Source: a virus
Virus record (IMG/VR): IMGVR_UViG_3300022542_000399
Coordinates: 1 to 37,024 of that record
Length of the DNA stretch: 37,024 nucleotides
Direction: 5' to 3' (one strand)
The notes below the pieces were generated by a model. That model made no database searches. It was not told the DNA's origin and was given only the letters and a program-made list of their open reading frames with translations. Numbering within the stretch: position 1 is the stretch's first letter; every line of letters starts with the position of its first letter. Made by a program: the position numbers and the translations under genes. Shown piece after piece: positions 2,645 to 28,115 of the stretch.

Positions 2645-5578
2645 ATGCCAAATTATTATAAAACAGATGTACCATGTGACGGTGTTGAAATTATTTTTGA
2701 TCAAGGATATGCAACAACAGGTGAAGTCCCAGTAGGTTCTCCTGCAATACTAGAAGTTCCTGAATATATAATGGGATCAAACAATATTCAGGTATTTGCA
2801 GAAATTGGATCACCATTAACATGGACTCTATTAACTGAAGCTGACTATACAGAAATATCTTCTACGACTATTACAGTTGGTGCAATTGTTGCTGGAAATG
2901 TAAAGGTTATCCGTAAACCTGGATTGTTGGTTGATGGTGTTCATTATACTCGTGTGAATTCACAGATAATGCAATTTGAAGAGGAATTTGTAGGACAGCT
3001 TTATGGTGGTTCTCCACTCATTAATAACCTTACAAAAATTTATACTCACAATCCAGCAAAATCAAAACTTAATCCAGCCAAGATAATTGATATGGAATCC
3101 AATGTAGTTGTTGCTGATGTTCCAATTTGGGATCCAGCTCGTGGCCATCATTCCCACAATGCGATTCATGTTGCTAAATTACAACGTGGTGATCCTCTCG
3201 ATCCGAACGGAGAAGACCCAGCATTATATAATATGGTAGTAAATGATACTGATGTTTCTGATAAAGCTTGGAATAGTCAAGAAGTTGGAATAACATGGTT
3301 TGATAAATCAACGTTAGGATACTTACCATATTATGACGAAAATGTATATTCAAACCTTGATGATAGATTGTTCTATTGGGGCAAACTTGCACCATGGGCA
3401 AGTATTAATTTATATGAATGGACAGAATCAACTGTACCACCAGCAGAGTATGATGCTATATCAGCCGTACAAGAAGGTGATGTTACAATAGATGAAAAGA
3501 TACGTGTTACTGGACAAGCTAAAGGAACACCATATACAAGAAGTCGTAATAATTTTACTTTTGATGTTACTATTGAAGCCAGTGGATATCAAACTTTTAC
3601 TGTTCCAGATTTGTATGGTACAGTAAGTGAAAGTGATGCTACTGGATTAGTTAATAACTTCGTACAACAATTTACTGCTATTGGTTCAGGTTCACCTTCT
3701 GTAGATGAAGTGTTTACTTTAGATCAACCATATGCAAATGGACAAGTTCCAACTCGTATACAAGTTACACAAAATGGTATTCCAGTCGCAATAACAGAAA
3801 TATCTTCTACTCAATTTTCAGTTAGTGTAGCAACAGCAACAGATGATATAATTCAAGCAACAATAACTGCTCCAAATTATACAACAGGAATTACTGTAGA
3901 TGGTACATTATATAATGTTGTCATTAATGGTTCAGTTGCTCAAAACTACGGACAACTTCTTGGTCGCTTAACTGATGATCTAAGTTTATCGGGTGCAATA
4001 GTTGAACTTGATGGAAACGATATTAAAATTACTAGCCCAACAACTGGTTCATCGTCAACTGTATTAATAACAGAACCTGTTAACTTACCATTGTTTGGAA
4101 GCATTGGACCATATGGTGGTAGTCCTCTACTTACGGCAAATGATGCAGTTGATGGAATTGATAGTGAAGTTATTCCTGTAGTAGGGTATACGTTTGTACC
4201 TGGCGATGAAGTAATTGTATCGTCTGCTGGTACCCTTCCAGCACCATTGGAAGCCGGTGGAACTTACACAGTAGATCTATCTGCCTCTCCTATGTCTTTC
4301 CAGCTTAAAGACTCTACTGGTACAGAAGTTGAGTTTACAGATACTGGTACGGGTATTCATACGATCGCTGATTCTACATTCCCAACAACATGGGACAAAG
4401 AAATAGATGTACATGACTTAATTGATGTTGTATACCAACAAGGGTTACAAGATACGACAGATTCAATAAATTTACCATTATATGGAAGTCCTGCTGTACC
4501 AAAATTTGCTGATGGTGATAGTGTAGATGTTTATATTAATGAAGTATTCCAAGAAACAGTAACTGTCGCATCATCAACAGTTACTTTAACTAACTATACT
4601 TTCCAATCACAGGATACAATCCGGATCATCCGTCAAGCACATGATATCATCGCTGCTGATGAAGAATTCGATCCAGACACTACTGACGACGGAACGATTC
4701 ACATTCAATACAAAAATTTGTATAATTATACTGAAGTTACAACAATAGACGAAAATGGTATTGATGAAATTAAAACATATTATTTCTGGGTTGGGAATAA
4801 GTCTGTTCGTACTATTCCGAATAGTGCTCTTTCTCTTCGTGAAGCAAAAGAACAATTAGAAGAAATTCCAACACCATATATTATTTTCCAAAATTTGGAA
4901 CCACAACAAATTGCAACACCAACGTCTCCAGGGTTACCATCAAGATATAATCGAATGATATTACGTGGACATGCTGGATTAATTAATGCTGATAATCGTT
5001 ATGTTCTTCGTTTCACACGAGACCTTACCTTACGTGATACTTTAGAATCACCAGAAAATGCACCAATGCAGAAAAATGTTCATACAGAGTGGGAATTATT
5101 CCGCGAAAACCAACAAAGCCATCCTCGTAGAGATTTGTGGGATAAAGTTACAGAAAGTATCGTTGGTTATCTTTTAGCAGATAGCACAGTACGTATTCCA
5201 TCACGAGAACGTGAATTATATGATGATGTACACGGTACTGATACTCGTTATGGATTAGGCGATGGACAAATCTTTATTGATGGTGATTTAGCACAAGCAA
5301 CGATACTAGCTGATCTTAATAATCCTGATAATGATTTCTACCCGACAGATATTGACTTATTCTTCCAGAATTATAACTTCGATACTGCAGAAAACTCCAT
5401 TGCATTAATGGATAGAATATATAATAACTTTGCTTATGATCATGTGAATAGAATGTTCCATGCAGTGCTGTTAGATGCTTTTTCTAAAAAGGATAAATAC
5501 CCTGAGATATTCAAAACTTCGATGATTTCATTACACGGTATTAGAATCTTGGAAACAGCGGGACTTTATGATGATTAA
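2645..5578 (+). CDS. Large tail-type structural protein (977 aa) with FCCH-like module and GSP motifs
   Basis: I do not recognise a named family. The 977-residue protein starts one base after the upstream stop (TAAGATG). It is beta-rich, with one FCCH-like module encoded at about 4138-4368 (GDEVIVSSAGTLPAPL, FQLKD, TGTGIHTI), related to those in the upstream gene. The tripeptide GSP occurs six times (2735, 2807, 3008, 3689, 4118, 4484), usually followed by L, A or S, always at what looks like a loop. The C-terminal 300 residues are less repetitive and helical-looking (DRIYNNFAYDHVNRMFHAV), which could be a particle-attachment domain. Position between two other giant proteins and upstream of late-type genes supports a tail or baseplate component; this is inference. 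Confidence 0.8.
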   Translation: MPNYYKTDVPCDGVEIIFDQGYATTGEVPVGSPAILEVPEYIMGSNNIQVFAEIGSPLTWTLLTEADYTEISSTTITVGAIVAGNVKVIRKPGLLVDGVHYTRVNSQIMQFEEEFVGQLYGGSPLINNLTKIYTHNPAKSKLNPAKIIDMESNVVVADVPIWDPARGHHSHNAIHVAKLQRGDPLDPNGEDPALYNMVVNDTDVSDKAWNSQEVGITWFDKSTLGYLPYYDENVYSNLDDRLFYWGKLAPWASINLYEWTESTVPPAEYDAISAVQEGDVTIDEKIRVTGQAKGTPYTRSRNNFTFDVTIEASGYQTFTVPDLYGTVSESDATGLVNNFVQQFTAIGSGSPSVDEVFTLDQPYANGQVPTRIQVTQNGIPVAITEISSTQFSVSVATATDDIIQATITAPNYTTGITVDGTLYNVVINGSVAQNYGQLLGRLTDDLSLSGAIVELDGNDIKITSPTTGSSSTVLITEPVNLPLFGSIGPYGGSPLLTANDAVDGIDSEVIPVVGYTFVPGDEVIVSSAGTLPAPLEAGGTYTVDLSASPMSFQLKDSTGTEVEFTDTGTGIHTIADSTFPTTWDKEIDVHDLIDVVYQQGLQDTTDSINLPLYGSPAVPKFADGDSVDVYINEVFQETVTVASSTVTLTNYTFQSQDTIRIIRQAHDIIAADEEFDPDTTDDGTIHIQYKNLYNYTEVTTIDENGIDEIKTYYFWVGNKSVRTIPNSALSLREAKEQLEEIPTPYIIFQNLEPQQIATPTSPGLPSRYNRMILRGHAGLINADNRYVLRFTRDLTLRDTLESPENAPMQKNVHTEWELFRENQQSHPRRDLWDKVTESIVGYLLADSTVRIPSRERELYDDVHGTDTRYGLGDGQIFIDGDLAQATILADLNNPDNDFYPTDIDLFFQNYNFDTAENSIALMDRIYNNFAYDHVNRMFHAVLLDAFSKKDKYPEIFKTSMISLHGIRILETAGLYDD

Positions 5579-5598
5579 GGATTCTAGGGAATTAAACA

Positions 5599-8565
5599 AT
5601 GGCTAGCCGAATAACAATTGATCCAGTACAAGGACTAGTCGATTACGTACTAGAAATTAAACCATATCACACCAAGATTGTTGAGATATTGGTTGAGCAT
5701 ATCCAGACAGAACCAATTGATGTAACAATTATAGAAGATCTTGATATGTGTATCAATTTGGGTATCCCTGATATTGATACTCGATTTTCTTACACAATAA
5801 TTGGTGTCGATACGATAGCAAATACTTTTACTATATCTGGTGATAAGCGTCTCAATCTACACGTCGGCCAAGTTATGGAAGTCTTCCGTAGCACACTCAA
5901 TGATAATAGATATACAATTACTTCATTAGAATTTGATGGAGTAAATACAGAAGTTGGTGTTTCTATTACTATCCCATCTACTACAGTTGATGGTACCATA
6001 GTTTATCGTGTTATAGAATATTGCCCAGAAGGCAATCTTTATAGTGAATACCTAGCACCAGTTTTTGAAGAAGAAGCTTGTGGTGGAGGATTCGGTGCTT
6101 TATTTGATAGCATTCCTACTACATATGAAGCTCAAGTTGGGACTGGAACTGGTAGTCCATTAATTAGTTATACAATCACTGCCAGTGGAGATCTTTCTTC
6201 TGCTTTTGTCATAGGATCACAATTTTATCTTGAATACGTTACTACCACAGAACCTGGAACAGTAGTTGAAGGAATTTATACTATTGCTAACGTATCAGTT
6301 GCTGCATCAGTAACTACGATTACAACAACTCAACCAATTCCAGCACCTACAACAATAGACATTGCTATTGTATATCCATTAGATACGCAATATGCAATTG
6401 ATTCTACTAATAATGGTGGAACGACTAATACGTTTGATATACTCGGTGATTACACAGGAGTGTTTATAACTGGTTCATTGATTGAGGTTAGTCATTCATT
6501 CGGTAACGATGGTGTATTTTATGTATTGCAATCAACACTAGTTGGAGGCAACACAAGAATTGCTGTAGCTCAACATGTTCCGAATCCACTCGGAGAAGGT
6601 CAGTTAAAACTTAAGAATATTGGATTCGATGAAATTGTTCAATGTACAAATGTTCCTGAAGGTCGCATTGATGTAATGTTTGATGAACGAATCGAATTTA
6701 ACACACAATTACATCCATTAGATGACATATATGCATATAACCTTGAAAATACAGATAGTACTTTATATGGTAGTGGTTCGCCATTATTAGCTATTGAACC
6801 ACTTACGGTCAATCACGAAGGAACATATGGTGGTGGTTCTCCACTTGCGAATGTTGTGGTTTCATCCGTCTCTCCAGACAAATTTGAAATTTATGGTGGT
6901 AACTTTGCTTACCATTTCTTTGGCAACACAACATTCGATGGATATACTGGTGTATCGTTATCAGGCCAGTGGCAGATAACAAACTTCCCAGTTGTTGCTG
7001 TTGGGGATGGTGTTAATACGATGTCAGTTCCTGGTGATCATACATCATACTTCACACCTGGTGTATCTTTTTATGTTGATTATACATTAACAAATAAAGG
7101 TTGGTTTACTGTTGTTAGTTCTACCTATGTTGGCTCACCAGGTAATACAGTTATTACTGTTAGTGAAGAAGTTGTAAATGCAACATTTAATAATGGTGAT
7201 GGTGGTTCTCCAACAACAGTTATTGAACAGAACTATTCAAAAAATCTTGGTAATATTAAAGGTGCGCTATTTGATGCTTCTACACAAACAACAATTGTTA
7301 TTCCAAAAACAACTGGTGATGCATCGGTTGATAGAATTACGTATATTTGGTCAGGTCCATTACATGTTGATGTTGATTTGTTACCAACTAGTTTAATTAA
7401 TCCAACCATCTCTAGTGTTGTAGATATGTCGAACGAAATCGTAGCATCAGCTAATTATCTCAACATAGTTGATGTTGATTTATCTCTTGATACATTTACA
7501 GTGCTTGGTGACCAAACAACTTTATTCCCAGATGCTAGTAAGTTTACTATCCAAGATGCATACTCAACTGGATTGTCGCCAGAGACTACAAATAATGGTA
7601 CTTGGACTGTTTCTCGTGCATTCTATAATGGAGCAGGCAATGAAACTGTAACAGCTGTCGATACGGGTGCTGATACATTTACTATTGCAGGAAACTATGC
7701 TGATAAGTTTATCCCAGGATTTGCATTTATTGTTGCTGGATCAGGTTCTCCATCAAATGATGGAAGTTATGTTGTTCAAGGATCAGGTTCTCCACTAGTT
7801 GGTGCGACATATAGTTCTGGACCTAATACGACAACCATTCCTGTAACTACACAAATACCAAGTTCGTTGATTGGTGGGTTATTGACATTCGGTGGTACAG
7901 ATGAAACATTAATTTACATATCTGGAAACATTATAACCGATCAACAACCATATGGAAAAATCCTAAACATAACAGGTGTATCTGCTGCACAATTGAGTGG
8001 TACAATTACTGATGATCTTAATTTTGGTTGGACTGTTACTGATTGGTTCCAGTATATGATTCTTTCTGTTGACCTTGTAGAAAATACTATCACCATCGCT
8101 GATCCTTCTAGTACTGCTGTTAGTGACTTACAGATTGGACAAGACTTTGAAATATTAGGTGGCTTTGATACAACAGGCTCACCACCAAGTGGTTCACCTG
8201 CAGGAATAACAAATAATGGAATGTACAAAATACGGATCGATGAAGATTATAGAATGTATGGTTCACCTGTCTTGTATAGAACAGAAGTTAATGATAATGG
8301 AGATAATACTGTGACATTAACAGTATATCCAAACATTACTACGGCTGTCCAACCATATGGCTGGATTGAACCAAACAACGATGCACAAGCTATTTTTGCA
8401 TTTACTGATGCTATCGGTGTTAGTTGTGTTGAAGCTGTTGATGCAGCAGTAATTCAAACAGGTGGTTCAATTATAGATTCATTTGACTATCCATTCTGGG
8501 ATGTTGGTTCATTCGATGAAACGTTGGGTACAGTTATTCATCTTTACAGCAATACTTTCGAGTAA
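5599..8565 (+). CDS. Large repeat-built tail-type structural protein (988 aa)
   Basis: The 988-residue protein starts at an ATG preceded by AGGGAATT. The N-terminal 60 residues (VDYVLEIKPYHTKIVEIL) look like a conserved attachment segment. Most of the rest is about seven diverged copies of a 55-70 residue beta repeat of form NTFTIxGDxTxxFxxGxxF, then NDGxYxV and NTxIxV, encoded at about 5821, 6133, 6427, 7015, 7490, 7672 and 8086. Ten GSP tripeptides are scattered through it, several interrupting the repeat. One copy of this repeat occurs in the first gene, so the three giants share building blocks. No catalytic motif was seen. It is probably an elongated virion surface or baseplate protein; the exact role is unknown. 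Confidence 0.8.
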   Translation: MASRITIDPVQGLVDYVLEIKPYHTKIVEILVEHIQTEPIDVTIIEDLDMCINLGIPDIDTRFSYTIIGVDTIANTFTISGDKRLNLHVGQVMEVFRSTLNDNRYTITSLEFDGVNTEVGVSITIPSTTVDGTIVYRVIEYCPEGNLYSEYLAPVFEEEACGGGFGALFDSIPTTYEAQVGTGTGSPLISYTITASGDLSSAFVIGSQFYLEYVTTTEPGTVVEGIYTIANVSVAASVTTITTTQPIPAPTTIDIAIVYPLDTQYAIDSTNNGGTTNTFDILGDYTGVFITGSLIEVSHSFGNDGVFYVLQSTLVGGNTRIAVAQHVPNPLGEGQLKLKNIGFDEIVQCTNVPEGRIDVMFDERIEFNTQLHPLDDIYAYNLENTDSTLYGSGSPLLAIEPLTVNHEGTYGGGSPLANVVVSSVSPDKFEIYGGNFAYHFFGNTTFDGYTGVSLSGQWQITNFPVVAVGDGVNTMSVPGDHTSYFTPGVSFYVDYTLTNKGWFTVVSSTYVGSPGNTVITVSEEVVNATFNNGDGGSPTTVIEQNYSKNLGNIKGALFDASTQTTIVIPKTTGDASVDRITYIWSGPLHVDVDLLPTSLINPTISSVVDMSNEIVASANYLNIVDVDLSLDTFTVLGDQTTLFPDASKFTIQDAYSTGLSPETTNNGTWTVSRAFYNGAGNETVTAVDTGADTFTIAGNYADKFIPGFAFIVAGSGSPSNDGSYVVQGSGSPLVGATYSSGPNTTTIPVTTQIPSSLIGGLLTFGGTDETLIYISGNIITDQQPYGKILNITGVSAAQLSGTITDDLNFGWTVTDWFQYMILSVDLVENTITIADPSSTAVSDLQIGQDFEILGGFDTTGSPPSGSPAGITNNGMYKIRIDEDYRMYGSPVLYRTEVNDNGDNTVTLTVYPNITTAVQPYGWIEPNNDAQAIFAFTDAIGVSCVEAVDAAVIQTGGSIIDSFDYPFWDVGSFDETLGTVIHLYSNTFE
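5821..8340 (+). repeat. Seven diverged beta-repeat units within the 988-aa tail protein
   Basis: Units begin with (N/D)T(F/M/I)(T/D/S)(I/V) followed by GD or GN, an aromatic-Gly segment, NDG/NNG/NKG followed by (Y/F/W)xV, and a strand ending near IP. Approximate spans are 5821-5982, 6133-6352, 6427-6590, 7015-7176, 7490-7650, 7672-7866 and 8086-8340. The second and seventh are the most degenerate. Similarity is at protein level only, so the duplications are old. Confidence 0.6.
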
Positions 8566-8888: not shown

Positions 8889-10070
8889 ATGGAACAATTT
8901 TTACCAATTAGTGTTAAGGGACACGTTAAAATCGAGAATGATTTGGGCGAAGTACTTCTTAACGAGGATAATGCGGTTCATCCACAGAATCTATCTCGTG
9001 TCATTGCGAGAGCACTTTCGGCTGAAAGCAATTACTGGATTCATAGAATCGCTTACGGTAATGGTGGTACTTCTGTTGATGCCGCTTTCTTGATAACATA
9101 CAATACACCGAATGATGGACAATCACCTGATTCAAATACTTGGGATTCTCGTTTATATAACGAAACATATTCTGAAATTATCAACGACAGTGCTGGTGGT
9201 CTTTTAGGTACAGATCCAGGTTCTTCTGGTCCAAATGCTGGACAACGTTCTGGTGGTGGTGCAGATCCAACTGGTGATCCAACTACTGTTGAACACGTTT
9301 CTGGTCCTGGTGTCCGTAGTAATGAACTTGGACTCACATCTGAAATCGTTATCACATCTGTTTTAAATCCTGGTGAGCCAACCGGACAATTTTTAACTGA
9401 TGATCAAACAGACACAGAGAGTGATTTCACATTTGACGAAATCGGTCTTTATACAACTGGAACACCTGCTAGTGCATCTGTTGGTTACCACAATATTGAC
9501 GTTGGTAACAGAACTTCTGAAGATGATTCAGGACTTTTAGCTAATACAGCATATTCTCTTGATGTTACAATTGATGGTGGCACACTTCAACAAATTAACT
9601 TTACCACACCAGTTGCTGGTGGTTCTGGTCCAAGTAGTGAAATTCTTTACGGTGATATTTGTGAAGCTATTAATACTGGTGCCGTTGCTTGGGGAACTCC
9701 ATCTTTTACTGGTGGAACATTAACCATTACTGATAATTCAGGAAGCTTCTCTTCAATTCCAATTGGTACTCAAACATTTGGCTTCTTGAAAGCTACAAGT
9801 GATACTACTGGTGCAACATCATCTGTTTTACTTGCTGCAGGTACAGGTGGTGGAGCTGACATGATTGCTTCAGTAAACACACCTACTGGTGGTGTTTTAC
9901 AAACAGCTGTTGATGGTGTTGATGCTGGTATTCAAAATGACCCAGTCAATTCTACAACTGAACGTGAAAGATTGTTAACACATATCATTTTCAGCCCAGT
10001 ACTTAAAAGTGCAAATAGAACATTGACGATTACATATACACTTACGGTATCTGTTGCTAGAACAGCATAA
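8889..10070 (+). CDS. Virion-type structural protein (393 aa)
   Basis: The N-terminus (EQFLPISVKGHVKIENDLGE and on to SRVIARALSAESNYWIHRIAYGNGG) is of a type I know from structural proteins of T4-like aquatic phages. The middle, about residues 100-150, is Gly/Pro/Asp-rich and probably flexible (DPGSSGPNAGQRSGGGADP). A beta-rich segment near 190-310 looks like a decoration or receptor-binding insertion, and the C-terminal strand pattern RTLTITYTLTVSVARTA resembles a beta-sandwich end. Strong AGGAGA ribosome binding site. It is followed 25 bp later by a terminator, so it ends the plus-strand structural block. The exact virion location cannot be told from sequence alone. Confidence 0.7.
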   Translation: MEQFLPISVKGHVKIENDLGEVLLNEDNAVHPQNLSRVIARALSAESNYWIHRIAYGNGGTSVDAAFLITYNTPNDGQSPDSNTWDSRLYNETYSEIINDSAGGLLGTDPGSSGPNAGQRSGGGADPTGDPTTVEHVSGPGVRSNELGLTSEIVITSVLNPGEPTGQFLTDDQTDTESDFTFDEIGLYTTGTPASASVGYHNIDVGNRTSEDDSGLLANTAYSLDVTIDGGTLQQINFTTPVAGGSGPSSEILYGDICEAINTGAVAWGTPSFTGGTLTITDNSGSFSSIPIGTQTFGFLKATSDTTGATSSVLLAAGTGGGADMIASVNTPTGGVLQTAVDGVDAGIQNDPVNSTTERERLLTHIIFSPVLKSANRTLTITYTLTVSVARTA

Positions 10071-13600: not shown

Positions 13601-14860
13601 AGTACCAATCTTAAAAGCAAAATTATCTTGGTCGACCGCATCTGTTAATAAATGATTATATAATGTGAATGTATCAGGATTATACCATAATGATATTGAA
13701 AAATCATTAGTTCCAAATGTAGGTAGCGTATGAGTAATATATGTACTCGTACTGCTAAAATCTAATGCTTGGTCAATTATTCCTGAAACTGGGGTAGCTC
13801 CTGTAATTACTGAATCATATCCATTTGGTGATTCATCGATAAGTGTTGATCCAGAAATATTATCCATAGTCCATGCAGCAGTTAGATCAGGATGAGTAAA
13901 CGAAGTTATGAGTTCATATGCAATTACAACAGTCCAAATAAAATCATCAGTAACGACTCCACCCCTTCCATCATTTGCAGTTACTGTAACGCTATACGGA
14001 CTACTTACAGCAGCACCAGCATCAACTGTTCCTGATATTAATCCTGTATTGATATCAATCGTTACTCCTGATGGCAAACCGTCAGCACTATAAGAAATAA
14101 CATTTCCATCTGGATCAGAAGCTACAGATGACAAAGAAATAACGTCTGTTTCAAAGTTTGCTTGATCAAGAATATCTTGAGCAAATACTGGAGGGAAATT
14201 TCCTGCTTGATCAACACCAATCAACGTGGTTGCTGGGCAAGCACCAGGAACAAGATTTTGATAAGTTACCCATTCACTTCCATCCCATTGTTGAATTTTT
14301 CTTTCTACAGGAGGATCGGTTGGGGTTCCATCAGCCCGTTCTGTTGAATTAATTATAATTATTGTACGTTCAGGCCCAGTGTTAATGTTTGCTATAATTG
14401 AACCATCTTGTGGTCCACCAGACCCACCAGACATAAACGTTTCTGTGAAAGTGTCTAGACAGATGCTATCCTCACCTTCTATATCGAATTCAGTATCGGC
14501 TCCACGAGTATACATTTCAATATACTGGCTATCACGATTAACAAGAAAACGTAAAGTATCTATTCCACCAACATCACACTCTAATGGTGAGCCTGCAGAA
14601 GTTTGTATAAAATCATACGTTTCTGTATCGGTAGCAGCTTCACTTAGTACAGCATAATATCTAACCGTTAAACGAAATACATCTGATCCAATATATGAAG
14701 ATTGGATAGAAATATTATTCAAGAGAGGACCTTGTTCAATGCTCCTAAAATAACTCCCACCAGTGAATAGACGAGAGCGATGTTCAATAAAAACAGGTGC
14801 AGAACAGAAAGCGACAGGTGCCGCTATTGGTCTATAATCGTATGGAGGTTGGCAGCTCAT
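10607..14860 (-). CDS. Giant multi-LamG adhesin-like virion protein (1417 aa)
   Basis: The N-terminal 200 residues look particle-attached. Residues about 216-310 form a cadherin-like He_PIG-type domain (SDPDGNVISYSADGLPSGVTI, NTGLISGTV). Five concanavalin A/LamG-type domains follow, at about 320-520, 523-740, 747-977, 977-1203 and 1210-1417, each with W(Y/H)HIVLM- or YWRLGES-like signatures. Domains 1 and 5 are near-duplicates, and 2 and 4 resemble each other. LamG domains typically bind glycans, so a host-surface binding fibre or spike decoration is likely. Its ATG overlaps the PAAR stop (TAATG), coupling it to the spike tip protein. One GSP tripeptide lies at 14585-14593. The long reading frame is intact. 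Confidence 0.85.
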   Translation of the reverse strand: MSCQPPYDYRPIAAPVAFCSAPVFIEHRSRLFTGGSYFRSIEQGPLLNNISIQSSYIGSDVFRLTVRYYAVLSEAATDTETYDFIQTSAGSPLECDVGGIDTLRFLVNRDSQYIEMYTRGADTEFDIEGEDSICLDTFTETFMSGGSGGPQDGSIIANINTGPERTIIIINSTERADGTPTDPPVERKIQQWDGSEWVTYQNLVPGACPATTLIGVDQAGNFPPVFAQDILDQANFETDVISLSSVASDPDGNVISYSADGLPSGVTIDINTGLISGTVDAGAAVSSPYSVTVTANDGRGGVVTDDFIWTVVIAYELITSFTHPDLTAAWTMDNISGSTLIDESPNGYDSVITGATPVSGIIDQALDFSSTSTYITHTLPTFGTNDFSISLWYNPDTFTLYNHLLTDAVDQDNFAFKIGTTGFNQVPYFFTSPSGTLAYSSSLTGANWYHIVLMRSGTDIYISVNGVTELVGTGFTYDLTTTSFYTGIGGNVPSEASDGQQDQMRIFDRVLTQSEIIELYDEGSVYYNVVIVDDIPVSYWRLGESSSHLAVDEIGTIDGIYHTGDFGKIGKGAVFNGSDSKIDFSFVTGFPTTDVTVSFWAKYTTNTEKSSIIFASPDETPLNRFNIHFTWSDGRIFWDWGDILVGGRLILISDAGWLNVMAHWTFIAESGVGMRIYRNGTLVASNATTSTFAVGTKTISLGYYNNPVTYWNGDIDELGIWNRSLTDPEIAELYNSDNGISHPFGTGTTLLSGLYSYHNFEDNSNDLVGSLNGLDYNILYDGLNMGQTGLILFDSDTAVAFDGTTQYVSTGYKYDFIQQTGIFTIEVWIQLTDYTLNTVQIIAGTEFASAGHGWTIWYENRTGAGSHAIAFLIAKGTEGTYGIVAFSNDEAVTDNLPHHVVVTGSGSAVTMYVDGIQVGDPDSYVGLSSSSSAANAWIAGTSSGAGLKFDGILDEAAIYDYQLSLTQIHDHYIAAGYTISRPYYNAITADAPIAYWRLGESSGIVAIDEIGTYNGTYGGDVSVGQTSLIPTENDQSILFNGSSGAVNGTGVPLGDNPTTFSIEVIVKIIADNTGTSSQFIYDQRDETIGEHSIAFLYRESTGKFAINKSPSTGNEFNSNLSVTLGQIYHLVYIEDGINRYLYINGVLDNSDALAEVYTGVATTGWSIGQLAWSTASGATFNGVIDDMSLYDYALTPAQVINHYDATGYENIIAFNHPNLVAGWTMDNISGSTLVDESPNGNDSIITGATQTSGLIGQALDFSSTSTYITHTLPAFGTNDFAISMWYNPDTFTFYSHLLTATTGQSDFAFKIGDSAFSGKPYFYTLASGSKVYSTGLTAGSWQHIVLMREGTNIYISINGDTELVGTGFTNNLTTTSFYTGIGQGIEHLDGQADQMRVFDRALTQNEIDALYNGGAGA
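10630..11220 (-). repeat. LamG copy A' (C-terminal), direct repeat partner of 13310-13900
   Basis: DNA coding for the last LamG domain. Long stretches match the first LamG domain at an offset of about 2680 bp, for example the segments around 11166-11200 and 11040-11100. Protein differences are mostly conservative (AWTMDNISGSTL against GWTMDNISGSTL). Confidence 0.85.
13310..13900 (-). repeat. LamG copy A (first LamG), direct repeat partner of 10630-11220
   Basis: Same orientation as the C-terminal copy, with nearly identical blocks near 13737-13775 and 13845-13880. A small indel lies near the end (offset falls from about 2680 to 2674). This looks like a fairly recent intragenic duplication. 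Confidence 0.85.
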
Positions 14861-15159
14861 TAGTTAGCGAATACGTCAGGAGAACCATTTGCTATTGGAT
14901 TATCATGACAAGAACGACCACAACAATGAGTAACAATTGGATCGTCTACACGTGCCATTGGCGAATTATTAACAAATACGTTAGGAGAGCCTTCTGATAT
15001 GGGAGTAGGTGGCCAGTAACATCTTCCAATCCAATGCCCGACAGTGTTATCAGGGCCAACACGAGTGACAGGCATACCATTAGAGAAAACGTTTCCGCTT
15101 CCTTGATCTATTATATCACCACATGAAACTGGGTCTGCTATACGGGCTACTGCTGGCAT
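14860..15159 (-). CDS. PAAR-motif spike tip protein (T4 gp5.4-like)
   Basis: About 99 residues. Typical PAAR features are MPAVARIADPVSCG at the start and the repeated G(S)xxVFxN elements GSGNVFSNGMPVTRV, GSPNVFVNNSPMARV and GSPDVFAN, with Cys and His residues suited to metal binding (THCCGR). PAAR proteins form the sharp metal-bound tip on the gp5/VgrG spike and can carry attached effectors. The start at 15159 is chosen over an upstream ATG at 15207 because GAGGAA lies just before it and the extra 16 residues are not PAAR-like and overlap the promoter. Translation is coupled to the LamG giant. Confidence 0.85.
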   Translation of the reverse strand: MPAVARIADPVSCGDIIDQGSGNVFSNGMPVTRVGPDNTVGHWIGRCYWPPTPISEGSPNVFVNNSPMARVDDPIVTHCCGRSCHDNPIANGSPDVFAN

Positions 15160-15184
15160 ATCTTTATTCCTCAAATTATGTGTA

Positions 15185-15196
15185 TATTTATAAATA
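15185..15196. promoter_or_regulatory. Divergent late promoter palindrome TATTTATAAATA
   Basis: A 12-bp perfect palindrome containing TATAAATA on the plus strand (15189-15196) and on the minus strand (15192-15185). The plus copy precedes AAGGAG and the ATG at 15218; the minus copy precedes GAGGAA and the PAAR ATG at 15159. Both leaders are of suitable length, so both directions are probably used. Confidence 0.75.
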
Positions 15197-15217
15197 TTAA
15201 AGAACAAGGAGAATAGT

Positions 15218-15574
15218 ATGGATGTAAATGGATTTAGAAAATGGTCAAATGCGGTTGCAGAAACAGTAGATGCATGGCGAATTGTTCCACGTTTAATGGT
15301 AATTGCTTATGGATTTTTAACATGGAAAACTTGGGTCTGGTATACAGGAATTGATGTCATTGTGACAAAAACCAATTGTCAATTGCTTGCCACACAAGTG
15401 GTGTGTGACATTACAGGCGTTGTTGGACCAAGTACACAACAAGCGACATTGGTTACTGCAATCGTTAGTATGGCTGCTGTTGTAATCGGTTTATATTCAA
15501 GTTCAGGTAAAGATTGGACGAAGCCACTATTACCTTGGTTCGGTAAAAAGAAAGAAAAAACTGAGGAGGAATAA
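15218..15574 (+). CDS. Two-TM membrane protein, possible holin
   Basis: 118 residues with two hydrophobic segments: about 27-46 (LMVIAYGFLTWKTWVWYTG) and about 76-95 (ATLVTAIVSMAAVVIGLYS). A highly charged C-terminus follows (GKKKEKTEEE). Small size, two TM helices, a charged tail and a late promoter fit a class II or III holin, but no family-specific motif was recognised and the lytic transglycosylase is 5 kb away. Ribosome binding site AAGGAG. Its stop abuts the stop of the convergent RNase H gene with no spacer and no visible terminator. Confidence 0.65.
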   Translation: MDVNGFRKWSNAVAETVDAWRIVPRLMVIAYGFLTWKTWVWYTGIDVIVTKTNCQLLATQVVCDITGVVGPSTQQATLVTAIVSMAAVVIGLYSSSGKDWTKPLLPWFGKKKEKTEEE

Positions 15575-21826: not shown

Positions 21827-22450
21827 TTACGCGAATTGCTCTAACCACACGCGATAATCGCCAGGAAATGCGGTGGGGTCATATAGAAAAGGAGATTGAG
21901 CCGCAATATGGAATCGTACTTGGTACAAATCGCCAGCCAATACAGGAGTAGTGTTATTAATGAAATGAGGGTCACTTGGGAAGATAATCATTGTCCCTCT
22001 TTGTGGATTAAATCCAAATCCGTGTTGTGCAAATTCTAACTTACCACCATACGCTTCAAAATCATCATCAAAAGGAATTCGTTCTTGATAATCACTTAAA
22101 AATATGACACCAGTTAAGTCACGGTCTTTTGTACGTAACCATTGTTTACGAATATAGTTACTATTTTCACAATGCGGTTCGTATCCATTACAACCAGAAG
22201 CATACCATTCAAATACCATTTGTTCAGTACCACGATAATCTATTCTAAAGTATTCTTCAATTTCGGGAACGATTTCTTCAAGATAATTGAATACATTTAA
22301 TTCAGCACGTTCGTGCATGCGGATAGTTCTTATTGGATGTTCTTCGGTGTTTGTATCAGGAACAGTTAAATCAAGCATATCAACCAAATCTTCACAAAGA
22401 AGTGGTGAGAGGAATTCTTGTTTAATAAAAAACGGAGATTTGTTGGCCAT
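21827..22450 (-). CDS. 2OG-Fe(II) oxygenase-like protein (HxE variant)
   Basis: 207 residues with the double-stranded beta-helix pattern of prolyl 4-hydroxylase-like oxygenases. First metal pair H93-C94-E95 (YEPHCENS), then GGKLEF (135-140), GTMIIFPS, distal His162 (PHFIN) and a 2-oxoglutarate-binding Arg179 (YQVRFHI). The usual HxD is HxE here, which some family members have but which can change activity. Related genes are common in T4-like cyanophages, where the substrate is unknown. It is 16 bases after the retropepsin-like gene, probably the last gene of the late operon starting at 23387. Confidence 0.78.
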   Translation of the reverse strand: MANKSPFFIKQEFLSPLLCEDLVDMLDLTVPDTNTEEHPIRTIRMHERAELNVFNYLEEIVPEIEEYFRIDYRGTEQMVFEWYASGCNGYEPHCENSNYIRKQWLRTKDRDLTGVIFLSDYQERIPFDDDFEAYGGKLEFAQHGFGFNPQRGTMIIFPSDPHFINNTTPVLAGDLYQVRFHIAAQSPFLYDPTAFPGDYRVWLEQFA

Positions 22451-22466
22451 ATGTGGTTCCTATGTG

Positions 22467-23357
22467 TTATTCTTTATTTCTATTATATTCAACAGCATCA
22501 GAAAAGCTTTGTAAGATTTCTTCCATATCCCACATCTCAATTTTTTCTTCAACTACTATATCTTTAAATTCTTCTTGAAGCATATCCCAATCAATAACTT
22601 CTTCCCCTTCTTGAATGGATGGGTCAATTAAGAATTTACCTTTCTCTAAAATATTTTGACCAATCAATAATTTGTGGTCCATATTATTTCTATCATTTAA
22701 GTTAATTAAAACATCTTGCAGAAGCTTTCCATTAATTTCAAGATTAAGAGCAATAACAGGACGATACTCTGTACCACCATCGGCAGACTTAACTGCTTGC
22801 TTATCTTGGAGCGGTAATGAAATAATATTTGGAGAAAGTACTTTTGATAAGAAACTTACAGTGTTTGTTTTTTCATTTATGTCAAATTTATCAGCGTGTA
22901 ATGAACTCATAAGAGCACCAGTATCAACTTTACCTTTAAGAGTAACACTTTGTGGCATAGATGTAAACCGAACATCTACAACGTCACCAATAACATTTTG
23001 GTCGTTTGCTTCACGAACCATAACCATTCCCATTCGGCCTTTAGAAACAAATTTAACTTCAACAGGACGAATCGTAAGACGAGTCATAGCCCAAACAAAA
23101 ACTAAACGGTCCTGAAAACTTGATGTATCATCAGCACTTGTATGTTTTTCATCATACTTTTCTTTATTTTCTTTATTTGGGTCAAGGCTGTAAACCAACA
23201 TAGCTTTTTTGTTATCGTTGATTATATCTTCAAATTTATCAGTAGTACCGCTTGATAGTTTATACTTGATATCTTCAACAGAAAGTTCATTAGGCAAAGA
23301 TTTTAATTTACCTTTTGTAAACTGTGATTTGAGGTCTTGTAGGTTGTCAAATTTCAT
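22467..23357 (-). CDS. Retropepsin-like aspartic protease-fold protein (PF05618-type)
   Basis: 296 residues. The segment KVDTGALMSSLHA (catalytic-type Asp145, DTGA at 145-148) and the later LLIGQNILEKGKFLIDPS match the family once called ATP-dependent zinc protease, in fact a retropepsin fold. Residues 1-90 are helical and unrelated (possible partner-binding domain), and the C-terminal 40 residues are very acidic. Retropepsins act as dimers, so one motif is expected. An exact late box lies 23 bp upstream with AAGGAGA. Its ATG overlaps the nuclease stop (TAATG). Late expression suggests a virion or maturation role; the proteolytic activity is inferred. Confidence 0.75.
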   Translation of the reverse strand: MKFDNLQDLKSQFTKGKLKSLPNELSVEDIKYKLSSGTTDKFEDIINDNKKAMLVYSLDPNKENKEKYDEKHTSADDTSSFQDRLVFVWAMTRLTIRPVEVKFVSKGRMGMVMVREANDQNVIGDVVDVRFTSMPQSVTLKGKVDTGALMSSLHADKFDINEKTNTVSFLSKVLSPNIISLPLQDKQAVKSADGGTEYRPVIALNLEINGKLLQDVLINLNDRNNMDHKLLIGQNILEKGKFLIDPSIQEGEEVIDWDMLQEEFKDIVVEEKIEMWDMEEILQSFSDAVEYNRNKE

Positions 23358-24022
23358 TAAGAGTTCTCCTTCTGGAATGTATTTATACGTTCCAACAACG
23401 GTGCAATATAATCATCAATTTTGCGCCTATACACCATTGGCATCATTCCCTTCTCGACTGCAATTATTACAACAATATCTTCAATAGCCTCACCAAATAA
23501 TTCATGATACATAATAGCATACGCAGTACATTGAATGAAATAATCTTCAATCATATCTGCTGTCTTGTTATTGTTGGACGTCTTAAAATCAATGATAGAA
23601 AGCGTACCGTCATATTCTCCCACGCAATCAACACGACCAGCAATCTCTAATCTATCACTATAAAGTGGTACTTCTTGAGCGCGGATATTATTGATTTTAT
23701 TGAGGCGAAGCTTGATTTGATTAAACAAACGAACATTTTCAACTTTTTCACCTTTCGTGAAATTTTCTTCATTGTTTAGATATTTTTCAGCTAAAAGATG
23801 AACTACAGTCCCTCTATCAGCACATCGTTTTGTTTCTTTATCAGCTTTGGCCACACCAAGAGATTGTCGCCATGCTTCAAGATATGGTTTTGGTTTGGAG
23901 CTAAGGATTGTTGTTATGGATGGATACTTCTTGCCAGTGGGAGTCGTATAATAACGCTTCCCATTGACAATTTTAGCATCAAGTTCGTTGAATTGTGGAA
24001 TGTTTGTGTGATTGAATGTCAT
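23357..24022 (-). CDS. PD-(D/E)XK exonuclease (MGME1/Cas4/RecB-like)
   Basis: 221 residues. YPSITTILS near residue 33 and W51 are typical of MGME1-like nucleases. The catalytic core shows H75xxxE79, GRVD with D132, IIDFKTS with D145 and K147, and QCTAYA (Q164, Y168), the complete PD-(D/E)XK plus QxxxY motif set. It should be an active metal-dependent DNA exonuclease, perhaps for host DNA degradation or recombination. It lies within the late-type block between a basic core-like protein and the retropepsin-like gene. The start is weakly defined (no clear ribosome binding site). Confidence 0.85.
   Translation of the reverse strand: MTFNHTNIPQFNELDAKIVNGKRYYTTPTGKKYPSITTILSSKPKPYLEAWRQSLGVAKADKETKRCADRGTVVHLLAEKYLNNEENFTKGEKVENVRLFNQIKLRLNKINNIRAQEVPLYSDRLEIAGRVDCVGEYDGTLSIIDFKTSNNNKTADMIEDYFIQCTAYAIMYHELFGEAIEDIVVIIAVEKGMMPMVYRRKIDDYIAPLLERINTFQKENS
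23380..23387 (-). promoter_or_regulatory. T4-type late promoter box TATAAATA
   Basis: Exact TATAAATA on the minus strand inside the 3' end of the nuclease gene, followed by AAGGAGA and the ATG at 23357. Expected to drive the retropepsin-like and oxygenase genes. Confidence 0.75.
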
Positions 24023-24052
24023 ACATATATTTATTAAGTTTTATTTAGCCGC

Positions 24053-24397
24053 TTATTTTGTCGCCACTGGTCGTTTACCAGATAATCTTTGGTTCATTTT
24101 TGTAACCATTTTAGAAATTGACTTTCTTTTAGCAATCGCTGTCTTACGAACCCGTATTCCTTTCTTCGTCCTTGCAACTTTTTTACCGTGACGGACTTTA
24201 CGTGGGTCTTTACGTTGGCTACAAGATTGTGGAGAAGCTACTATCTTACCTTTTTTTGGTCCAGAAGTGCAACGGTATTGTCGTTTAATTACTGACCCAA
24301 AACGTTTAAACTGTCTCAGTGCAGCTTCATTGAGAGTATTACCCTCTTCATCAGTATAAATCACTTCACATTCATATAAAATTTCATCAAGAAACAT
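24053..24397 (-). CDS. Very basic small protein with capsid-targeting-like leader
   Basis: 114 residues. After an acidic N-terminus (MFLDEILYECEVIYTDEEGN) the protein is dominated by Lys and Arg (KKGKIVASPQSCSQRKDPRK, KKVARTKKGIRVRKT), a nucleic-acid-binding composition. The first residues end in I-L-Y-E, which resembles the leader and (I/L)xE cleavage site of T4 internal head proteins. One possibility is a DNA-compacting internal or core protein; another is a basic replication or transcription factor. It is coupled to the upstream charged protein (TAATG overlap) with GGGAGGT just upstream. Function not recognised. Confidence 0.7.
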   Translation of the reverse strand: MFLDEILYECEVIYTDEEGNTLNEAALRQFKRFGSVIKRQYRCTSGPKKGKIVASPQSCSQRKDPRKVRHGKKVARTKKGIRVRKTAIAKRKSISKMVTKMNQRLSGKRPVATK

Positions 24398-24972
24398 TAC
24401 ATACCTCCCATGTCGCCACCAGAACGTAATGCTTTAAGCTTGTCTTGAAGTTCTTTGATTTTTTCGCGAATCGCTCGTTCTTGTTGAGGCTTGCTCTTCG
24501 TTTTTCTTTGTTGTAACATTGCTTCTCTCTTCTTAACAGGATCACGAAGGTCTTCAGGATTTACATCCATCGTTACAGCAGCTGGTTCATTTCCTGCAGC
24601 GGTCCCAACTTCATTTAGAAGATGATTCATAAAGGTCAATTTACCTTCTTTAACTTCTTTCTTTTCTTCAGGTTTCTTTTCATCTTCTGGCTCAGCCCCT
24701 TCTTCTTTTTCTGGTTCTTCTCTACGCTTGGATTTTGATTTATTTTTTGCAGCATCTTCTTCTGCCATATCAATAGCTTGATTAATTCGTTTGTGTGTAC
24801 TCCCACTCAAATTTCTTATGTGGTTTTTCATATCTGCAAACTCACCACTATCAACTATACGTTTCATCATAAGACTAATAGTCTTTGGGGTTAGTCCCAT
24901 TCCATCTTTCATAAAAGCTCGAACAAGTGCATCTATTCCACTATCGCTTCTGCTTAATCTTTCCTTCGCCAT
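24397..24972 (-). CDS. Charged, coiled-coil-rich protein, possible head-core component
   Basis: 191 residues. Residues about 1-75 are helical (RMxxIxxSGEFADMKNHIRNLSG pattern), 76-115 are a Lys/Glu low-complexity stretch (KSKSKRREEPEKEEGAEPED), and the end is a helix with GGDMGGM. No enzyme motif. Composition and position between the acidic 326-residue protein and the very basic 114-residue protein suggest a prohead core or scaffold set, but I recognise no homologue. Ribosome binding site AAGGGGA. Eleven bases separate it from the upstream gene. Confidence 0.65.
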   Translation of the reverse strand: MAKERLSRSDSGIDALVRAFMKDGMGLTPKTISLMMKRIVDSGEFADMKNHIRNLSGSTHKRINQAIDMAEEDAAKNKSKSKRREEPEKEEGAEPEDEKKPEEKKEVKEGKLTFMNHLLNEVGTAAGNEPAAVTMDVNPEDLRDPVKKREAMLQQRKTKSKPQQERAIREKIKELQDKLKALRSGGDMGGM

Positions 24973-24983
24973 TTTAAATCCCC

Positions 24984-25964
24984 TTAATTTGCTTGAAGTC
25001 GTCGTCTTAATAAATCTGTTAATTCATCTACTGTTAAAGTTTCCTTACCCATTTCTTCCTCTTCTTCTGGAAGGGCTGGTTCTTCTTCGCTTACGCTATC
25101 AGATGATAAATCGTGTTTGTATTTTGCGAGTTGAGCAAGTTTCTTTGCCTCTTTATCTGCAGTAGCCTTGTCTTTGTTATATGTCTCCATATCAAGAATT
25201 TCTTCTTCCTGCTTAACTTTTTCACCGGCCGCCTTAGCAGCATATTCTGCAGACTTGGCATCTGCCTCAGCTTTCTTAGCATCTGCCTCAGCTTTCTTAG
25301 CTTCCGCATCCGCTTTCATCATATCAATAACTTGAGTTAATGCCGTCTTAGCATCTTCTTCATCACCCATTTCATCAGCGACCATTTCTTCATCACCGAG
25401 ATCACCTTCTTCATCACCGAGATCACCTTCTTCATCGCCTAAACCAAGTTCATCGCCTTCACCTTCTACTTCTTGATTCTCTTCTTCGTCTTCTGGAATT
25501 GCACCCCATTCAACATCAATTATATCAAACTTATCTTTTAAATCGAATAGAACTTCAGCAATTTCAAATGTTGAATTTTCATCGTCATCGTCATCATCTT
25601 TACCTGCGAGAGCAGTTTCAAGAGCTTTTTCAAATTCTTCAGCTTGGTCAGCTTTTACATATACTTTAACCATTTCACCATTTTCATCTTCAAGACCAAA
25701 TGATACGGTATCATTTTCAACAGAAGCACTTTTTTCAGCGGATTTTAATTTAGAAATAACATCTGCTGAATCAAATTTATCTTCAACACCTTCACCAACT
25801 GTCATTCGTTTGAGTAGAGAATGTTTCTTTTTCTTCTTCTTTTTATTCACTTTTACTTTTTCGGTAGGTTCAGATCCCAACGGACTACGGACTCCAGCGA
25901 TATCGCCAGCACTTGTAGCACCTTCCGCAGCTTCTTCTTTGATTAATGTTCGCAATAATGACAT
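24984..25964 (-). CDS. Acidic repeat-containing protein, possible prohead core/scaffold
   Basis: 326 residues, very acidic overall, with a KKKKKKKH run near residue 42. A globular segment at about 75-165 (FEIAEVLFDLKDKFDIIDVEWG) is followed by heptad repeats EGDLGDE (2.5 copies), then KAEADAK repeats forming a long helix, then an acidic C-terminus with a final LTVDELTDLLRRRLQAN helix. Scaffold and prohead core proteins of T4-like phages have this kind of acid-rich helical composition. The N-terminus MSLLRTLIKEEA includes an IxE motif. An exact late box lies 29 bp upstream and AGGA precedes the ATG. Assignment is by composition and regulation only. Confidence 0.65.
   Translation of the reverse strand: MSLLRTLIKEEAAEGATSAGDIAGVRSPLGSEPTEKVKVNKKKKKKKHSLLKRMTVGEGVEDKFDSADVISKLKSAEKSASVENDTVSFGLEDENGEMVKVYVKADQAEEFEKALETALAGKDDDDDDENSTFEIAEVLFDLKDKFDIIDVEWGAIPEDEEENQEVEGEGDELGLGDEEGDLGDEEGDLGDEEMVADEMGDEEDAKTALTQVIDMMKADAEAKKAEADAKKAEADAKSAEYAAKAAGEKVKQEEEILDMETYNKDKATADKEAKKLAQLAKYKHDLSSDSVSEEEPALPEEEEEMGKETLTVDELTDLLRRRLQAN
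25261..25302 (-). repeat. 21-bp tandem repeat coding KAEADAK units
   Basis: Two adjacent 21-bp units differing at the last base, with a degenerate third copy following. They encode the helical Lys/Ala/Glu/Asp heptads of the acidic protein. Confidence 0.85.
25387..25440 (-). repeat. 21-bp tandem repeat coding EGDLGDE units
   Basis: Two exact 21-bp copies (25387-25407, 25408-25428) and a partial third. Exact identity at DNA level indicates a recent slippage-type expansion in an acidic linker. Confidence 0.9.
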
Positions 25965-25992
25965 AATTATTTTCCTATTTCAGCATCTTATG

Positions 25993-26000
25993 TATTTATA
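25993..26000 (-). promoter_or_regulatory. T4-type late promoter box TATAAATA
   Basis: Exact box on the minus strand in the 153-bp gap, followed by a leader with AGGA and the ATG at 25964. Heads the block of acidic, charged and basic proteins plus the nuclease. The rest of the gap holds the terminator at 26061-26094. Confidence 0.8.
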
Positions 26001-26060
26001 GTGGTAACGCATACAATGCACGAATTTCGTGTTTGGTTGTGTAATGTATTTATGGCAGAC

Positions 26061-26094
26061 AAAAAGGAACCCAGCATCTTACGATAACTGGGTT
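26061..26094 (-). terminator. Intrinsic terminator after the 26118 gene
   Basis: On the minus strand AACCCAG, 13-base loop, CTGGGTT, then CCTTTTTG. It lies 23 bp past the stop of the 26118 gene and just upstream of the late promoter at 25993, separating early and late blocks. Confidence 0.7.
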
Positions 26095-26117
26095 TATTTG
26101 AGACAAAATGTGGGGAT

Positions 26118-26441
26118 TTATAGAATTTCGGTACTATCAAGTTTGAATGTACGATATTTCACATTACTAATATCTGTATTCTTTGAATGTTCAGCCCATT
26201 TATCAAATGAAAATGTTGTTTTTGAGCAGTCTTTCACATATTGGTTATACTCTTTTAACATATCTTGTAATTGAATACGATCTTCTTCTGAAAGATCAGT
26301 CACATCAATTGCTTTTATGTTAGGTTTTGGAATGAATGTTGGAATGATGACACGTTCAGTGACTTCAAATCTGTCCATAGTTCCACTATCAGCATTTGCT
26401 TTTGTGTACCGTATGTTTTGAATTTCACCTTCTTTAAGCAT
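26118..26441 (-). CDS. Small protein resembling a WYL-type domain
   Basis: 107 residues. The layout EIQNIRYTKANADSG, R(x)VIIPTFIP, NIKAIDVTD and the final KYRTFKLDS strand is reminiscent of WYL domains (Y near the start, R, then YRTF at the end), which sense ligands or nucleic acid in bacterial regulators and phage proteins. Similarity is by eye and weak. The start at 26441 is preferred over 26477: it overlaps the upstream stop in a coupled arrangement and AAGGTG precedes it. Last gene before the terminator. Confidence 0.6.
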   Translation of the reverse strand: MLKEGEIQNIRYTKANADSGTMDRFEVTERVIIPTFIPKPNIKAIDVTDLSEEDRIQLQDMLKEYNQYVKDCSKTTFSFDKWAEHSKNTDISNVKYRTFKLDSTEIL

Positions 26442-26742
26442 CGACAATTTCACCTTCTGTAGCATCAGCTGCATCATTTGCTGCTGTCGCTTCAGCCTTT
26501 GCCGCTTCTACTGCAGCCTTTGCCACTTCTGCCGCTTCTTTCTCTCTGCGAATTGTAGTGATGATTTCACGAGAAAGGTCACGTTGTCCAGCTTGAACCA
26601 ACATTAATTCAGATTTGATATCTGATTCTTTTTGACGCCACTCATTGTAAAATTCAACTAAACGTTTTACATCTTCCGACATATCGCTTACTGCATAAGG
26701 TACTTCATCAACGTTAATAATTGAAATTGCTTCTACTTTCAT
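26434..26742 (-). CDS. DUF6447-like small helical protein
   Basis: 102 residues. A short beta start (ISIINVDEVPYAVSDMSEDVKRL), then a helix rich in charged residues ending LMLVQAGQRDL, fits my memory of DUF6447, a small phage family of unknown function. The tail is an Ala/Lys/Glu helix (AAEVAKAAVEAAKAEATAAN), likely coiled coil. Ribosome binding site AGGAG. It has its own perfect sigma70 promoter, so it is likely expressed strongly and early. Its end overlaps the following gene. Confidence 0.55.
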   Translation of the reverse strand: MKVEAISIINVDEVPYAVSDMSEDVKRLVEFYNEWRQKESDIKSELMLVQAGQRDLSREIITTIRREKEAAEVAKAAVEAAKAEATAANDAADATEGEIVDA

Positions 26743-26766
26743 TCTATTCTCCTATTTTATATTTGT

Positions 26767-26795
26767 ATTATATATGTATTCTGTATTTATGTCAA
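26767..26795 (-). promoter_or_regulatory. Perfect-consensus sigma70 promoter
   Basis: Minus strand TTGACA, 17-bp spacer, TATAAT, every base matching consensus. It lies between the helicase stop (26796) and the ATG at 26742. Confidence 0.92.
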
Positions 26796-28115
26796 CTAAA
26801 TTTGCATAAGGTCAATTAACCCTTTGCCACTTGGTTGATTTAAAAAATCTTCACTACCATTTTTTGCTTTTGGGCTCTTTAAGTTTAATGGAGTTGTATG
26901 TCCTCCACCATCAGGGTCTGTAATTCTCAATGATGACCCATCCCATTTTAGATATATTGTTTTACCCACACCATCACTTGATCGTGTTTTAAGGAACATA
27001 AATGCAATTTCCCCATTTGCTCTCATCGCATCATTCATTATAATGGAAATGTATACATCTGTTGTGTTAATTTTACTTATGCCACCTGCAATGTGGCTAT
27101 GGTTCAAATCTGTTTGTCCGACCGCAGTCCTATTTTGTTGAGCTGCTGTAATCATAAATGCGTTATAATCATTTGCAATATTACGTAATTGTTCTGCAGC
27201 CGCTTTATCTTTCTCGAACACATTATCAGCTGATATGAATTCATTTGTACCCATCAAGTCAAGGTAATCAACAATAATTGCATCTGGAGTATATCCATAT
27301 GTTAGTTCAAATTCTTTTAAGTATGCTCTTATATCATTCGAATTGGACCCAGCGTTCATATACTTAATAGTGATTTCGCCCATATTTTGTATAGCTGATT
27401 CAACCTTTGTAGCAATTTCACTAATCTTATATTGCCACCCTGCAGCCGAAATACCTGTGACCATACTATCGTATCGTAATGATACCATCTCTTCTGATAA
27501 TTCAAGCGAAATATAAAGAACATTCAATCCTTGTTGAGCGAAGTTTAATCCAAGGTTAGCCATAGCAATAGATTTACCACCACCAGAGTTAGCAGAGAAT
27601 AATAACATCTGCTTACGAACGATACCACCATTTAAAAGTTCGTCAACCTCTTTCCAATTTGTAGAAGTTGTTTCTTCTGTATTTGCTAATCGTCTTAATC
27701 GCTCTTCAGGATCATCAGAATATAATAATCCCAAATCTCTATTAAGAGAAACAGTTATTGCATCTCTTATTATTTCTTCGACTTTACCATAATCTCCTTT
27801 ATCAATTAAAGCAGGAGATGATAGGATTGCTTTTTCAATAGCTTTTCGTTTACAAAAAGATTCGATTTCATTTGAACAATATGAAACTTGATCTTTGGTG
27901 ACTTCTTGTATTTTTAGCTCAACACCAGTCTCGCCTTCTATTTGTGATTCTGTTGGTGTTGAATTATACTCATCGTAATATTTCTTGATAAAAGAAATAG
28001 TATTACGGAGTTCGGGATCAAAATATTCAGGTTGAATGATCGAAGCACATAAAGCAAATGTGTCAGCAGATGATATCAAATATTCTGTTAATAATTTTTG
28101 TTTTTTTATATCCAA
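26796..28115 (-). CDS. 41: DnaB-type replicative helicase, gp41-like
   Basis: 439 residues (T4 gp41 is 475). The N-terminal 110 residues resemble the DnaB/gp41 N-domain. The RecA-like core has Walker A SANSGGGKS (174-182), ISLE (202-205), Walker B AIIVDYLDL with D283, and a downstream QQNRT motif with ISKINTTD, as in hexameric SF4 helicases. It unwinds DNA at the fork and pairs with a primase (gp61-type, not in this window). It has its own sigma70-type promoter upstream. No primase domain is fused to it. Confidence 0.92.
   Translation of the reverse strand: MDIKKQKLLTEYLISSADTFALCASIIQPEYFDPELRNTISFIKKYYDEYNSTPTESQIEGETGVELKIQEVTKDQVSYCSNEIESFCKRKAIEKAILSSPALIDKGDYGKVEEIIRDAITVSLNRDLGLLYSDDPEERLRRLANTEETTSTNWKEVDELLNGGIVRKQMLLFSANSGGGKSIAMANLGLNFAQQGLNVLYISLELSEEMVSLRYDSMVTGISAAGWQYKISEIATKVESAIQNMGEITIKYMNAGSNSNDIRAYLKEFELTYGYTPDAIIVDYLDLMGTNEFISADNVFEKDKAAAEQLRNIANDYNAFMITAAQQNRTAVGQTDLNHSHIAGGISKINTTDVYISIIMNDAMRANGEIAFMFLKTRSSDGVGKTIYLKWDGSSLRITDPDGGGHTTPLNLKSPKAKNGSEDFLNQPSGKGLIDLMQI

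Follow-up and report, generated by a model that had tools for sequence, protein, structure and literature searches.

Why should a single tripeptide, Gly-Ser-Pro (GSP), recur in two adjacent virion proteins of a jumbo myovirus? The window, that is, the whole stretch of 37,024 nt that was analysed, comes from a viral contig; it has 99.99% identity to a stretch of the 92-kb IMG/VR contig G001. The two GSP-bearing genes are followed by a conserved neighbour:

2645..5578, + strand: virion protein of 977 aa with 6 GSP (phrog_10938, E 3e-15)
5599..8565, + strand: virion protein of 988 aa with 10 GSP and repeated beta-rich domains with NDG loops
8889..10070, + strand: protein of 393 aa without GSP (phrog_11259)

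The 977-aa protein is homologous to the C-terminal part of a structural protein of ~3,100-3,300 aa from the baseplate region of XacN1 and RAS14, jumbo myoviruses in which this protein adjoins baseplate wedge genes. The preceding ORF is also homologous to part of it, so that what is a single protein in XacN1 and RAS14 is represented by two ORFs in the window phage (window 1-5578), the second of which is extended at its N-terminus and contains ~300 inserted residues relative to its counterpart. For the 988-aa protein, no XacN1 or RAS14 sequence match was detectable, and a 1,018-aa protein at the same place in RAS14 did not align. The gene order is that of XacN1 and RAS14, namely giant protein, adjacent protein and phrog_11259 protein. 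No GSP is present in the XacN1 and RAS14 counterparts of the window proteins; both of these relatives are cultured phages.

All 16 GSP coordinates translate in frame, 6 in the 977-aa ORF and 10 in the 988-aa ORF, where composition predicts 0.25 and 0.39, respectively (Poisson tails of 3e-7 and 2e-11); the maximum in 20,000 residue shuffles per protein was 4. The first-pass annotation had reported six and ten copies as far more than composition would give, and this is borne out at 16 of 16 sites:

2735..2743, + strand: GSP site 1 (in-frame translation)
2807..2815, + strand: GSP site 2 (in-frame translation)
3008..3016, + strand: GSP site 3 (in-frame translation)
3689..3697, + strand: GSP site 4, within the ~300-aa segment missing from XacN1 and RAS14
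4118..4126, + strand: GSP site 5, within the same ~300-aa segment
4484..4492, + strand: GSP site 6 (in-frame translation)
6151..6159, + strand: GSP site 7, without counterpart in the related loci L015 and L016
6775..6783, + strand: GSP site 8, conserved in L015 and L016
6835..6843, + strand: GSP site 9, conserved in L015 and L016
7132..7140, + strand: GSP site 10, in a hairpin turn; absent from L015 and L016, at a near-equivalent place in L019
7204..7212, + strand: GSP site 11, conserved in L015 and L016
7744..7752, + strand: GSP site 12, ahead of an NDG loop, conserved in L015 and L016
7786..7794, + strand: GSP site 13, inside a ~5-residue lineage-specific insertion
8176..8184, + strand: GSP site 14, conserved in L015 and L016
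8191..8199, + strand: GSP site 15, conserved in L015 and L016
8260..8268, + strand: GSP site 16, conserved in L015 and L016

GSP had also been described as nearly absent from the rest of the window apart from one copy in the LamG protein. That copy is present, but two others had been missed in a gene that adjoins the LamG giant:

14860-15207, - strand: PAAR protein with two GSP, both covered by a PF05488 match (E 4e-14)

These two copies (GSPNVFV and GSPDVFA) were set aside as part of the pattern. PAAR proteins are alike in bearing GSP in GSPNVFVN-type repeats, but the tripeptide is there an ordinary family motif, which is expected outside the clade too.

The phrog_11259 protein was used as a handle for fetching relatives and for building a tree. 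Of the 119 related viral loci that were fetched, some are highly enriched in GSP and the others have it at chance. Larger parts of 24 relatives were read, and the count of every tripeptide was set against that predicted from the composition of the protein in question. Of 8,000 tripeptides, GSP is the most over-represented in 13 of 13 rich jumbo-myovirus contigs, the window phage included (for instance, 87 observed vs 16 expected in a 364-kb contig, and 75 vs 7 in a 100-kb contig). Elsewhere, in 12 contigs, its rank is 75th or far lower and its frequency at or near chance, as in a 350-kb contig (21 vs 19 expected); the weakest excesses among these, about two-fold, are in three small contigs. 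The GSP-rich contigs are one group when compared by overall protein identity. The phrog_11259 protein tree requires at least four changes of the GSP-rich label, so that exchange of this one gene is possible. The outcome that the first-pass annotation had set against its own observation, an equal GSP rate in the structural proteins of related phages, is not what was found: relatives outside the group are at chance, and inside the group GSP is kept as an inherited unit.

GSP is thus clustered in one group of XacN1-like jumbo myoviruses, on multi-copy virion-type proteins and in loops. Carriers with a family match comprise tail sheath, tail fibre, wedge-fibre connector, LamG, head-decoration-like and other structural proteins, as well as one endolysin-like protein; several carriers have no family match. 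In most contigs, the number of GSP in proteins that have at most one is near expectation, the main exception being G019 (14 vs 7). In the sheath alignment, most copies fall in variable, lineage-specific loops, and 15 of the 16 window sites lie wholly in coil in AlphaFold models of the two proteins, both of which are low-confidence models (mean pLDDT 55.5 and 48.7). Because the 988-aa model is poor, a fold search with it gave only weak beta-rich matches.

Location in loops, near NDG turns, would suit an ordinary loop or turn spacer that contributes to the stability or flexibility of repeated beta-domains and was amplified by domain duplication. Some Trp contexts at +3 do stem from a repeated fibre unit, to which an initial +3 Trp preference was largely traced before being discarded. 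However, the carriers come from unrelated protein families, relatives with the same domains have no GSP, and other good turn tripeptides are not enriched. Such a spacer is therefore very improbable, and the fold-stability role suggested in the first-pass annotation is contradicted, because the equivalent turn tripeptides GTP, GNP, GDP, NSP and DSP show no enrichment.

The tripeptide itself is strict. In 70 multi-GSP proteins pooled from ten contigs, there are 399 GSP vs 22.3 expected. Of the 57 tripeptides that are one residue away (GTP, GAP, SSP, DSP and so on), not one is enriched to a similar degree; the largest absolute excess among them is that of GSG (57 vs 41 expected). Replacement of serine by threonine is not seen (GTP, 33 vs 28 expected). 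Directly beside GSP, R, K and F are nearly excluded, T, G, S and V are favoured at -1, and A, L and P at +1, a restriction that suggests an active site.

Comparison between related GSP-rich phages indicates that GSP triplets are selected as units at the protein level: 110 of 191 (58%) are intact, whereas retention of other loop-type triplets of these proteins is 24%. For the 988-aa protein, 14 of 14 GSP are common to the window's two closest relatives. Many GSP changes involve indels, and both the loop location and the frequent link to indels that had been proposed from the window are supported by the alignments and AlphaFold models. The inserts that carry GSP are of mixed lengths, with exactly three residues in only 5 of 77, and therefore the idea of loop micro-insertions was right in location but wrong in form. 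In the example chosen to illustrate it, the repeat copy at about 7672-7866 in which GSP was thought to interrupt the NDG loop and the following strand, both nearest relatives also have the first GSP, and the second is part of the ~5-residue insertion.

Coincidence of many sites with indels would also be expected if a process acting on DNA, such as a mobile 9-mer or repeat expansion, had placed the GSP codons. This is extremely unlikely. The inserts are mostly not 9 bp long, one gain is a V-to-S substitution at a conserved site (LYGVP to LYGSP in the sheath of G004), and only multi-copy virion-type genes are affected. Moreover, the codons differ between copies, as had been noted at the outset, and apart from modest shifts they stay near background usage, AGT/AGC serine codons included.

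In this phage group, GSP is therefore very probably a recognition motif that is strict and under selection. Among the meanings first considered, that of a modification or binding motif agrees with the strictness at all three residues, with the occurrence on many virion proteins and with retention of the triplet as a unit. For the same reasons, GSP may be a sequon whose serine is covalently modified by an enzyme, by analogy through O-glycosylation, a reading that is given about an even chance. A single factor, most likely an enzyme, would then recognise GSP in trans, acting in the host cytoplasm before or during particle assembly, and the particle surface would be decorated at many scattered points. 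Short enzymatic sequons include N-X-S/T and the Bacteroidetes O-glycosylation motif D-S/T-(A/I/L/V/M/T). Like GSP, these are short surface-loop motifs that are kept or lost as a unit over unrelated proteins; in contrast to them, GSP allows no substitution at any of its three positions and no threonine. The intolerance of threonine, unlike most O-glycosylation systems, argues against O-glycosylation of the serine.

Strict loop specificity and presence on many virion proteins would equally suit a binding pocket, and the depletion of K, R and F beside GSP would suit a tight one. GSP could then be a non-covalent docking motif, with a small phage or host protein (a decoration protein, chaperone or assembly factor) binding the loops. 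However, a three-residue epitope without strongly conserved flanks offers little binding energy. Several clade-specific small proteins do exist, but the best-spread of them is also found in GSP-poor phages:

15218-15574, + strand: membrane-protein-like ORF of 118 aa (phrog_10198), between the PAAR and exonuclease genes and on the opposite strand to them

This holin-like protein at first looked clade-specific and was rejected as such when, besides 11 of the 13 GSP-rich contigs, it was matched in 2 GSP-poor contigs. Docking is thus considered rather unlikely.

What most favours a modification is the analogy with a sister clade, which is without GSP and whose virion proteins bear Thr-Pro-rich tracts; no dense [ST]P tracts were found in proteins of the GSP-rich contigs. 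Beside its tail genes, XacN1 encodes a carbamoyltransferase and a PF11397 (GlcNAc glycosyltransferase) protein:

L289 (XacN1 200000-249999), 22136-23509: PF11397 polypeptide GlcNAc-transferase

PF11397 is also present in G027, G029-G033, G040, G041, G044, G046-G048, G051 and RAS14. Across 48 genomes, it occurs in 15 Thr-Pro-clade contigs, among which G030 was counted by its tree placement since the fetched locus is too short to score, vs 0 of 28 GSP-rich or neutral contigs (0 of 13 GSP-rich). Of the 16 clade contigs that reach 30 kb, 15 have it and only G034 lacks it (Fisher p 2e-10 for contigs of at least 30 kb, although the contigs are related and the effective number of events is smaller). 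PF11397 proteins correspond to GT60 enzymes of the kind that initiate mucin-type O-glycosylation in protists.

At least two virion glycoproteins have been identified in XacN1 by proteomics, and the authors of that study suggest that phage transferases make them (PMC5852040). The sister clade therefore appears to glycosylate its particles, plausibly at the Thr-Pro tracts, and by analogy the GSP group may use a different and stricter acceptor. The two systems are found in the same phage group and on overlapping virion protein classes, and both have a hydroxy-amino acid adjoining proline. They differ in that the sister clade has clustered TP tracts, threonine and PF11397, whereas the GSP group has scattered single GSP, serine and no PF11397 in any GSP-rich contig. 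The GT60-family enzymes of protists have Ser/Thr-rich mucins or hydroxyproline as substrates (PMC8724618, PMC6939170); unlike the GSP pattern, this O-glycosylation (T. cruzi, Dictyostelium, the Skp1 pathway) is not confined to a three-residue motif, and the family was not found in the GSP-rich phages.

A search for a gene that could write the modification bears on the nature of the putative enzyme. No GT2, GT4 or GT60 glycosyltransferase was found in the GSP-rich contigs at the sensitivity used, the 364-kb contig included. This speaks against a glycan sequon, and the putative writer, if phage-encoded, would therefore be of another kind; a host enzyme is possible. The large genes that several GSP-rich contigs share, and that are absent from every poor contig in the comparison, are a DinG-like helicase gene and the prkA-yeaH-spoVR operon, normally a bacterial stress operon:

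G001 22391-27232: complete prkA-yeaH(DUF444)-spoVR operon, also in six other GSP-rich contigs

Among the other relatives tested, prkA and spoVR were found in only three, which are distant and GSP-poor; the remainder of the 13 GSP-rich contigs are fragments. In the window, a second candidate is encoded:

21827..22450, - strand: 2OG-Fe(II) oxygenase-like protein, conserved in relatives whether rich or poor in GSP

The distribution of the operon and the presence of a 2OG oxygenase in nearly every large contig would be compatible with GSP as a site of processing or of another chemical change (backbone cleavage, prolyl hydroxylation or phosphorylation), with PrkA, YeaH, SpoVR or the oxygenase as writer. 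However, in the tail regions that were read, GSP is not in excess in PrkA-bearing phages outside the group, namely the three relatives and the 640-kb phages tested, and kinase activity of B. anthracis PrkA was not detectable (PMC13001217). For these reasons, PrkA alone was rejected as the writer and the operon, the only clade-specific multi-gene candidate, is treated as a correlate. The window oxygenase was likewise rejected, since it is equally present in GSP-poor relatives and does not explain the dichotomy. A processing site is accordingly regarded as unlikely.

Returning to GSP as a sequon, a fuller version can be proposed tentatively, and it is somewhat doubtful: the group might possess a dedicated decoration system with a strict Gly-Ser-Pro sequon and a putative writer that is not GT2, GT4 or GT60 and is possibly linked to PrkA-YeaH-SpoVR, acting on many virion proteins, as one of several alternative virion-decoration codes swapped by sister phages. 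No description of a Gly-Ser-Pro virion motif was found in the literature searched. If true, a three-residue sequon of such strictness, present at tens of sites on each particle, would give an unusually clean code for recognition that sequence alone suffices to read. It makes directly testable whether, and by which enzyme, phages add chemical groups to their virions. Such decoration has rarely been documented and bears on host recognition and phage survival, and the sister clade, with its Thr-Pro tracts, GT60-type GlcNAc-transferase and a cultured phage with reported virion glycoproteins, offers a tractable comparison.

A further gene cluster, not conserved in the other contigs, was observed in contig G015 directly between two GSP-rich virion genes:

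L144 13041-18232: three radical-SAM genes and a fourth weak match
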